Assembly: GCF_004785645.1 (NCBI RefSeq)
Contig: NZ_SRPE01000008.1
Coordinates: 124,001-188,000, forward strand
Direction of reading: 5' to 3'
Origin: Empedobacter tilapiae
Lineage (GTDB): Bacteria; Bacteroidota; Bacteroidia; Flavobacteriales; Weeksellaceae
Length of the DNA stretch: 64,000 nt
This document shows positions 39,188 through 41,829 of this stretch, piece after piece (the stretch's first letter is position 1; the number at the start of each line of letters is the position of its first letter). The notes beneath the pieces are model-generated. The model was not told where the DNA came from and did not search any database. It saw nothing but the letters and a program-made list of their open reading frames with translations. A program made the position numbers and the translations under genes.

Positions 39188-39847
39188 ATGAGTATTCAAG
39201 AAAATTTAAAAATAATAAAAAATACGATTCCTGAGCATGTAACACTTGTTGCAGTTTCTAAAACAAAACCTGTTGAAGATTTGCAAGAAGCATATGAAGC
39301 TGGAATTCGCGATTTTGGTGAAAATAAGATTCAAGAAATGTGCGATAAATATGAAGTTCTTTCAAAGGATATTCGTTGGCACATGATTGGGCATGTACAA
39401 AGCAATAAAGTGAAATATATGGCGCCTTTTGTATATTTAATACATGGCGTTGATAGTTTGAAATTGTTGAAAGAAATTAATAAACAAGCCGAAAAAAATA
39501 ATCGTGTTATTGATGTATTGTTGCAACAATTTATAGCCGATGAAGAAACAAAATTTGGTTTGGATAAAGAAGAAATTCAACATATCATGCAAGAAGAAAT
39601 TCAGCATTTACCAAATGTTAGAGTTGTAGGATTGATGGGAATGGCAACGTTTACTGAAGATGAAAATCAAATTCGTGAAGAGTTTCGTTCTTTAAAATCT
39701 AACTTTGATTCTTTAAAATCTATTTATGAAAATATTTCTATTTTATCAATGGGAATGTCAGGTGATTACCAAATCGCGATAGAAGAAGGTAGTACAATGG
39801 TTCGCATCGGAAGTTCGATCTTTGGACATCGTAATTATTCGATTTAA
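39188..39847 (+). CDS. YggS/PLPBP-family PLP homeostasis protein
   Basis: 219 residues, single alanine-racemase-like barrel. PLP Lys in VAVSKTKPVEDL, FGENKIQEM, WHMIGHVQSNKVKY, SMGMSGDYQIAIEEGSTMVRIGSSIFG. The family has no known catalytic activity and buffers PLP. It starts 5 bases after the DUF1015 gene. In an operon with several PLP enzymes (synthase, acyltransferase, SerC) this is a sensible place. Confidence 0.92.
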   Translation: MSIQENLKIIKNTIPEHVTLVAVSKTKPVEDLQEAYEAGIRDFGENKIQEMCDKYEVLSKDIRWHMIGHVQSNKVKYMAPFVYLIHGVDSLKLLKEINKQAEKNNRVIDVLLQQFIADEETKFGLDKEEIQHIMQEEIQHLPNVRVVGLMGMATFTEDENQIREEFRSLKSNFDSLKSIYENISILSMGMSGDYQIAIEEGSTMVRIGSSIFGHRNYSI

Positions 39848-39908: not shown

Positions 39909-40850
39909 TTATTTCGAAAAAGGCAAAGTCTTTAAATTGACATTTCCACCAGAAATGATTATCCCGATATTTGTATTCTGATAATTTTCTTTTTCTTTGA
40001 TTAATGCGGCTAAAGCCACAGCAGAAGAAGGTTCGCAAACAATTTTCAAACGTTCCCAAATTAATTTCATTGCTGCAATTATTTCTTCTTCCGTTACACG
40101 AATTATTTTTTCTACACCTTTCTGAATGATTGGAAAATTAATATCACCTAGTTCTGTTTTCAAACCATCTGCAATTGTATTTGTTGTAGTGTTAGATTCT
40201 ATTTTACCACTTTCTAACGAACGATAGGCATCATCTGCTTCAAAAGGTTCTCCACCGATTACTTTACAATTTATACCAAAATTTTCGGCAGCAATGGTTG
40301 TTCCAGCAATTAAGCCTCCACCACCAACAGGAGTAAATATATAATTCAGGTCTGGATGTATTTCTAATAATTCTTTCGCTGCAGTTCCTTGTCCAAGAAT
40401 AACATTGAAATCATTTGAAGGATGAATAAACGTTGCACTTTTTTGTATTTCGATTTGTTTTGCTGCTTTTTCTCTAGCTTCTAAAGTTGGATCACACTCG
40501 ATTATTTGTCCATTGTATCCTTTTACAGCGTCTTTTTTAACTTGTGGAGCTGTAGTTGGCATCACAATAAAAGCTTCAATTTCCAAGCTTTTTGCTGCAA
40601 GCGCTAAAGCCTGTGCAAAGTTTCCAGAAGAATGCGTAACTACACCTTTTTGCTTTTGTTCGTCTGTAAGTTGTATGATAGCATTTGTTGCACCACGCAT
40701 TTTGAAGGCACCCATTTTTTGAAAGTTTTCGCATTTAAAAAACAAATTCGCTCCAAGTATTTCATTTAGTAAAGTAGAGGTTAAAATAGGTGTATTGTGA
40801 ATAAAAGGTTTAATACGTTGATGTGTTTCTATCATAGCCTGTTTGTACAT
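39909..40850 (-). CDS. threonine/serine dehydratase-like PLP enzyme
   Basis: 313 residues, fold-type II: PLP-Lys in FQKMGAFKMRGATNA, SSGNFAQALALAA, PVGGGGLIAG, and CEPSSAVALAAL near the end. No C-terminal ACT domain, so it is the catabolic or serine-racemase-like form rather than biosynthetic IlvA. It likely deaminates threonine or serine, or racemises serine. RidA lies 2 bases upstream in the same operon and would remove the reactive enamine product, which supports the dehydratase reading. Confidence 0.85.
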   Translation of the reverse strand: MYKQAMIETHQRIKPFIHNTPILTSTLLNEILGANLFFKCENFQKMGAFKMRGATNAIIQLTDEQKQKGVVTHSSGNFAQALALAAKSLEIEAFIVMPTTAPQVKKDAVKGYNGQIIECDPTLEAREKAAKQIEIQKSATFIHPSNDFNVILGQGTAAKELLEIHPDLNYIFTPVGGGGLIAGTTIAAENFGINCKVIGGEPFEADDAYRSLESGKIESNTTTNTIADGLKTELGDINFPIIQKGVEKIIRVTEEEIIAAMKLIWERLKIVCEPSSAVALAALIKEKENYQNTNIGIIISGGNVNLKTLPFSK

Positions 40851-40852
40851 AT

Positions 40853-41230
40853 TTATAGTTTTGAGATTGCAGTTACTTCAACTTCGATTAATGCATCATA
40901 ATGCAATTCATTTGTTGGAATAATACATCGTGTTGGTTTATGATCTTCAAAAAAATTACTGTAAGCAGCATTTACTTCATCCCATAATTGAATATTCGGA
41001 ATGTAAATTCGAACTTGTAATACATGCTTTTTATCACTATTAGCTTGATGTAATATAGTTTCGATGTTTTTTAAAACTAAGTTAGTTTGCTCTGAAATTG
41101 TTGTTGGAATTTTCTTGGTTTCGCGATCAATTGGTAATTGTCCAGATAGATATAAAATGCCATTGTGCTCAATACATTGTGAATAATGTCCGTTTGCAAT
41201 TGGCATACTTTCAGTGTGAATTATATTCAT
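40853..41230 (-). CDS. RidA-family enamine/imine deaminase
   Basis: 125 residues from the ATG at 41230 (MNIIHTESMPIANGHYSQC); the frame extends upstream to 41281 through the promoter palindrome, so that start is rejected. RidA features: GILYLSGQLPIDRETKKI, NLVLKNIETILHQAN, VRIYIPNIQLWDEVNAAYSNFF, TRCIIPTNELHYDALIEVEVTA. The catalytic Arg of RidA is present in PTRCIIP. It hydrolyses 2-aminoacrylate-type intermediates made by the dehydratase downstream. Confidence 0.9.
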   Translation of the reverse strand: MNIIHTESMPIANGHYSQCIEHNGILYLSGQLPIDRETKKIPTTISEQTNLVLKNIETILHQANSDKKHVLQVRIYIPNIQLWDEVNAAYSNFFEDHKPTRCIIPTNELHYDALIEVEVTAISKL

Positions 41231-41270
41231 TTTTATTGTTTTAAATATATCTTTATATAAAGACATATTA

Positions 41271-41314
41271 CAAATGTACAATTTATCTTTACATCAAGAT
41301 AAATTGTACATTTG
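41271..41314. promoter_or_regulatory. perfect 19-bp inverted repeat carrying two divergent promoters
   Basis: CAAATGTACAATTTATCTT, 6-nt spacer TACATC, AAGATAAATTGTACATTTG: all 19 positions pair. Each outer end is a TAnnTTTG element (TACATTTG), at 41271-41278 on the minus strand for ridA and at 41307-41314 on the plus strand for the MarR gene. A likely operator of the MarR regulator. Confidence 0.85.
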
Positions 41315-41331
41315 TTTTTCAATCAATTGTG

Positions 41332-41829
41332 ATGAAAAAAGAAAAAGATTTAATAGATGTATTAATTACAGAATGGAATTTGGAGCGCCCAGAGTTGGAT
41401 GTTGATGCAATGCAGATTGTAGGTAGAATTATGAAATTAGGAAAGATTTTCGAAAATAGAGCAAGTATGGCTTTAAAAGACAATGGAATTTATTATACTG
41501 ATTTAGATGTGTTAGCAACGCTTCGACGCTCAGGATTTCCTTATCAATTAACTCCAAAACAATTGATGCAATCTGTTGTGATTACTTCTGGAGCAATGAC
41601 AGCACTTTTGAATCGCTTAACAAAATTAGAATTAATTTATCGCGCAGCAGATGAAAATGATGGACGAATTAGCTTAGCAGGTCTTACTGAAAAAGGAAAG
41701 GAAGTTATAGATGATGCGATTCATAAAAGGTTTGATGAAGCTAAAAAATCAATAAAAATTTTGAGTAAAAAGGAACGAAGTGATTTATCAGTTTTATTAA
41801 GAAAATTATTGATAGAATTAGATGAGTAA
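41332..41829 (+). CDS. MarR-family transcriptional regulator
   Basis: 165 residues from the ATG at 41332. Winged helix: DLDVLATLRRSGFPYQLTPKQLMQSVVITSGAMTALLNRLTKLELIYRAADENDGRISLAGLTEKGKEV. Typical helical dimerisation ends. Divergent from ridA-dehydratase and 18 bases downstream of the 44-bp palindrome, so it most likely represses both itself and that operon until it binds a ligand, perhaps an amino-acid derivative. Confidence 0.9.
   Translation: MKKEKDLIDVLITEWNLERPELDVDAMQIVGRIMKLGKIFENRASMALKDNGIYYTDLDVLATLRRSGFPYQLTPKQLMQSVVITSGAMTALLNRLTKLELIYRAADENDGRISLAGLTEKGKEVIDDAIHKRFDEAKKSIKILSKKERSDLSVLLRKLLIELDE

Follow-up and report, generated by a model that had tools for sequence, protein, structure and literature searches.

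A predicted PecS/MftR-type operator between predicted mirrored Bacteroidota-type promoters of marR and ridA in Empedobacter tilapiae

The marR-ridA locus and its palindrome

The 64,000-nucleotide (nt) stretch of Empedobacter tilapiae DNA analysed here (contig NZ_SRPE01000008.1, positions 124,001 to 188,000; "the window" below, numbered from its first letter) contains a MarR-family regulator gene, marR, that diverges from a small operon of ridA and a gene for a pyridoxal phosphate (PLP) enzyme (Table 1). The region between them holds a long perfect palindrome which, by its sequence, is a composite: a predicted operator core lies inside and predicted promoter -7 boxes lie at the ends.

An earlier note had reported this palindrome as 19 of 19 pairing positions about a 6-nt spacer at 41271-41314. 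It is real and slightly longer, with 20-nt arms (41270-41289 and 41296-41315) that are complementary at 20/20 positions and separated by 6 nt, for a total of 46 base pairs (bp). The chance expectation of perfect 20-nt arms at gaps of 0-10 in 64 kb at 30% G+C is 1.3e-5, and each of 20 windows simulated with a first-order Markov model, scanned at even gaps of 0-10 only, peaked at perfect arms of 9 to 14 nt. Elsewhere in the window, perfect arms do not exceed 16 nt at gaps of 10 or less; six sites reach 14-16 nt (gaps 0-10), and a T run at the arm in each of the six gives them a terminator-like appearance.

Table 1. Genes and predicted regulatory features of the marR-ridA region (window positions)
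Feature	Position	Strand	Remarks
PLP enzyme, serine racemase/hydroxyaspartate ammonia-lyase group	39909-40850	-	starts 2 nt after ridA
ridA, Rid family hydrolase	40853-41230	-	TIGR00004, 110.4 bits (cut-off 106.25)
Second, weaker predicted operator ATATCTTTATATAAAGACAT	41247-41266		overlies inferred ridA start, about +1 to +20
-7 box TACATTTG of predicted ridA promoter	41271-41278	-	CAAATGTA on + strand; inferred start ~41266, 36-nt leader
Strong predicted operator core TTATCTTTACATCAAGATAA	41283-41302		PecS/UrtR type; centred 39 nt upstream of marR ATG
TTG, possible -33 element	41295-41297	-	16 nt from ridA -7 box, inside operator core
-7 box TACATTTG of predicted marR promoter	41307-41314	+	17 nt before marR; inferred start ~41319, 13-nt leader
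marR, PecS/MftR-like MarR repressor	41332-41829	+	165 amino acids; domain and structure-database matches

Predicted promoters at the palindrome ends

From the dyad outward, either half of the palindrome consists of 3 central nt, AAGATAA, ATTG, TACATTTG and a final T. The Bacteroidota -7 box TAnnTTTG is placed at -12 to -5 by a flavobacterial transcriptome study (PMC9723704, in the part of its text available here, as for the other papers cited), and TAnnTTTG boxes recur, with a -33 TTTG motif, in PMC2483708. TACATTTG fits this pattern, and its alignment to -12 to -5 yields the transcription starts proposed in Table 1. Within the window TAnnTTTG is found upstream of 12 of 29 genes, marR among them, and two control patterns are found upstream of 0/29 and 4/29; the 29 genes are those of at least about 150 amino acids with at least 40 nt of free upstream DNA, for which ridA is too short, and a few of the 12 boxes lie implausibly near the ATG.

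On these grounds the ends of the palindrome are putative -7 boxes of back-to-back marR and ridA promoters of the Bacteroidota type, and the last 8-9 nt at either end are predicted to be promoter rather than operator sequence. TAnnTTTG boxes are what these predicted promoters share with Bacteroidota sigma-A promoters in general; the difference is that here two mirrored boxes flank one operator. The strong core covers the -33 region of both predicted promoters, and the plus-strand mirror (41288-41290) of the possible ridA -33 element reads TTT. The earlier note is borne out in these respects: the palindrome lies between the divergent genes, has a -7 box at each end, and an operator there would cover the -33 regions of both predicted promoters.

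The predicted operator pair

Of the 18 positions of a Vibrio vulnificus PecS site, TATCTTTATATTAAGATA (PMC6391409), the strong core shares 16, and the central 20 bp is accordingly classed, by motif, as a PecS/MftR (UrtR)-type MarR operator. Its CAAT/ATTG flanks stretch the symmetry to 41279-41306, that is, to 28 bp at most. The weaker dyad, which does not figure in the earlier note, lies 36 bp away, centre to centre. TATCTT half-sites in a dyad of ~18 bp, often two to an intergenic region, characterize PecS-type operators, and by sequence both features are present. The likeness to the PecS-pecM systems of V. vulnificus, Pectobacterium and Dickeya extends to a MarR protein with an N-terminal helix and conserved tryptophan, a divergent target and AT-rich 18-bp intergenic dyads of near-identical core, commonly two (PMC6391409); the V. 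vulnificus intergenic region has two footprinted sites, as is the commoner case. The differences are that the divergent gene is ridA, followed by the PLP enzyme gene, instead of the EamA-type pump gene pecM, that the promoters are of the Bacteroidota type, and that the sites are 36 bp apart instead of the 57 bp of V. vulnificus.

A search of the own genome (27 contigs) with a degenerate 20-mer at up to 2 mismatches found 15 places, 13 of them with 2 mismatches; the single 0-mismatch and the single 1-mismatch matches are the two operators of this intergenic region. The reversed control pattern found 16 places overall. A wide regulon was therefore set aside, there being nothing above background beyond the two local sites. 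The simplest reading of that pattern is that MarR is a local regulator.

Operator and promoter in relatives

A pair of TATCTT-n6-AAGATA dyads, in some cases imperfect, is present in all six intergenic regions compared: those of the window, of three other members of the genus (L003, L004 and L005) and of two loci from Moritella's order (L006 and L019). In all four genus members exactly 39 nt separate the strong dyad from the marR ATG and a marR-side -7 box is present (TACATTTG in three, TACTTTTG in one); a ridA-side box is present in two of the four. In L006 and L019 the 165 nt before marR contain no TAnnTTTG, plus or minus strand, and the dyads are still there. Dyads kept without the -7 arms indicate that the operator is separable from the promoter. 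A AAGATAAGTTG half-site occurs on both sides in L005 and in L006 (Moritella), and the symmetry of L019 ends earlier; the half-site common to L005 and L006 suggests that operator symmetry may reach 28 bp.

The 20-nt arms are perfect in two of the four genus members with these genes, the window and L005; in L005 all 24 positions examined pair, centre included. An ungapped count finds 15/23 and 13/23 positions paired in L003 and L004, in which the left box is shifted by 1 nt. The earlier note had named loss of the palindrome from relatives with the same gene pair as a refutation, and this is in part what is seen: the palindrome is imperfect in two of these four genus members and perfect in the other two, and L006 and L019 lack outer arms altogether. 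Gene trees point in different directions on whether the perfect palindrome is ancestral, with the dehydratase (PLP enzyme) DNA grouping the window with L003 (support 0.97) and the marR DNA grouping L003 with L004 (0.88).

Probable two-way repression and possible origins of the arms

We consider it probable that the operator is placed exactly between two back-to-back sigma-A promoters and that repression runs both ways. A homodimer of the divergently encoded PecS/MftR-like repressor would bind the inner 20 bp and cover the -33 regions of both promoters, while a second dimer would occupy the weaker site, at about +1 to +20 of ridA; jointly they would keep marR (by autoregulation) and the ridA-dehydratase operon repressed until a ligand frees the protein. 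The two dyads, both -7 boxes, the conserved operator pair and the absence of further close matches from the own genome can be read directly from the DNA; two-way repression is likely, with protein binding, transcription starts and repression as the inferred elements of the model.

A tentative explanation of the extra length, compatible with two-way repression although we would not put it first, is mutational: operator and mirrored promoters together would form short inverted repeats, template switching during replication would have perfected the arms, and perfection beyond ~28 bp would be functionless. Two arm positions distinguish the window from L005, each of them changed in both arms, so that 18/20 positions are identical in right-right and left-left comparisons and 20/20 within each palindrome; one arm position reads A/A, T/T, T/T and G/G across the four genus members; and at the weak site of L003 two adjacent right-arm bases match the left arm and differ from L004. 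Homogenization of inverted-repeat arms by template switching has been published for yeast (PMC8604942) and Escherichia coli (PMC7202029). Against this, the events are few and come from four related species, a symmetric dimer or equal promoters could also yield mirrored changes, and the sequences compared contain no inverted spacer. The mirrored changes are thus a suggestive sign of arm homogenization. That the arms evolve in concert, with template switching copying mutations across so that the operator and both promoters change together, occasionally rewriting a -7 box (perhaps in L003), is a still more speculative extension and somewhat doubtful. The weak operator of L003, with its dyad 76 nt upstream of the marR start codon, has arms that pair at 16 positions (4-19 outward) and overlap the changed ridA -7 box.

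The alternative in which selection keeps the arms perfect, because a single operator of ~46 bp is read out to its ends by two side-by-side dimers or by extended contact, is unlikely. It would account for the perfect arms of the window and L005 and the two paired changes between them, and protection by V. vulnificus PecS does extend asymmetrically ~8-10 bp past the 18-bp consensus (PMC6391409); yet L003 and L004 have kept the genes and core but not a perfect left outer arm, L006 and L019 have no outer arms, and the outer 8 nt are a -7 box. The proposal of one long operator of 44-46 bp is accordingly not borne out: what is conserved is an inner 20 bp, with at most 28 bp of symmetry, of ordinary PecS/UrtR form and one of a pair. 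Its claimed rarity survives for the perfect length and falls away for the operator itself. An RNA hairpin or terminator, suggested by the long perfect inverted repeat and by five T after the right arm (41315-41319, plus strand), is very improbable given its position upstream of both predicted starts and between divergent genes, with no plus-strand gene leading in (the nearest, yggS, ends at 39847) and relatives that keep the core and not the full hairpin.

The regulator and its candidate ligands

MarR scores above the cut-offs of two models of the winged-helix MarR domain (PF12802, 35.5 bits against 27; PF01047, 30.6 bits against 24.6), and among PDB sequences it matches MftR (8ylf, E 4.8e-27) and PecS (8ylh, E 5.4e-23) best. 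The extra N-terminal helix with a conserved tryptophan that distinguishes the UrtR subfamily is present: a low-confidence structure model has a helix at residues 7-18, and W15, which aligns with the tryptophan of MftR and PecS, is invariant in six aligned proteins (from the window, L003-L006 and L015). The residues of HucR that we take to contact urate are W20, D73 and R118; MarR D59 and R104 align to positions 73 and 118, and both are invariant in the same six proteins. HucR H142 also contacts urate (PMC12893000), and the MarR residue aligned to it is D128, a difference from HucR. The T/S-S-G-T element of the alpha3-alpha4 loop that marks the subfamily (PMC12893000) reads T85-S86-G87-A88, with a differing fourth residue; MftR has S-S-G-S and PecS T-S-G-T. 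The regulator's kin suggest urate or xanthine as candidate ligands, and the enzyme suggests hydroxyaspartate, serine or a similar amino acid. Threonine or 2-ketobutyrate, as in the earlier note, is a guess: serine racemases and hydroxyaspartate ammonia-lyases are the nearest relatives of the enzyme, and those of the regulator respond to urate.

Target genes and distribution of the cassette

The top model for the PLP enzyme is beta-hydroxyaspartate dehydratase BhcB (402 bits, under the cut-off of 550); threo-3-hydroxyaspartate ammonia-lyase scores 375 bits, under its cut-off of 452, and the two nearest solved structures carry serine racemase names. The enzyme has SSGNF where three solved relatives compared have SSGNH, a possible change of specificity. 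Judged from titles and abstract openings, the literature matches listed contain no precedent for MarR control of ridA with a dehydratase, and a literature search with the exact core motifs returned only an unrelated match. By sequence, then, an operator of well-described type lies between mirrored promoters, and its target gene set lacks precedent among those matches.

In partly overlapping samples, marR is found in 4 of 296 family genomes (E <=1e-20), all of one genus, in 2 of 395 phylum genomes (E <=1e-15) and in 1 of 395 order genomes (E <=1e-15), the own genome, which is counted in each. It also occurs in 2 of 295 genomes of Moritella's order (E <=1e-35), and a scan of genome contigs found one locus, in the gammaproteobacterium Moritella sp. 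JT01. Within the genus the PLP enzyme is present in the same 4 of 14 genomes as marR. The three-gene cassette, its own regulator included (39909-41829), sits between yggS and a TonB receptor gene. The receptor gene directly follows marR in three of the four cassette genomes (two other reading frames intervene in L009), and in 9 of the 10 cassette-free genomes it comes after yggS; the tenth (L050) has no receptor match within the stretch compared. Thus marR, ridA and the PLP enzyme gene are gained or lost together, as a single cassette. All 219 plasmid records found (E <=1e-10) are below 60% identity, so the collection searched holds no close plasmid copy.

Both loci of Moritella's order have open frames for the enzyme and marR, and ridA has decayed, to pieces with stops in one (L020:3303-3643) and to a C-terminal remnant, residues 82-122, in the other (L021:4894-5016); the enzyme seems to have outlived its RidA partner there. 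The Moritella genome has a second PecS-like gene whose TATCTTTT half-sites form two dyads at a distance of 56 bp (L017:1986-2061), and the gene divergent from it resembles pecM by eye; these dyads place two related regulators with similar operators in one genome. For another MarR of that genome (L018) the best pattern match has 3 mismatches. The relative in G546 (51%, L015) was rejected as the same system because its neighbours differ; there the pattern fits best at TTGTCTTGACTTCAAGATAC, which begins 40 nt upstream of the ATG and likewise has 3 mismatches.

Implications

The operator is ordinary, and the mirrored arm changes, which may be mutational in origin through template switching, are the novel residue; if so, the symmetry of a regulatory site would be partly a product of mutation and not purely a sign of selection. 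The locus is small and open to experiment: a PecS/MftR-like repressor gene adjoins ridA and the gene of a PLP amino-acid enzyme, and its predicted operator is nested between predicted mirrored promoters of the Bacteroidota type. Two loci of Moritella's order, which have the same regulator and enzyme without such promoters, allow operator and promoter to be distinguished by comparison alone. The locus also carries a caution: a long perfect palindrome is not necessarily a long operator.
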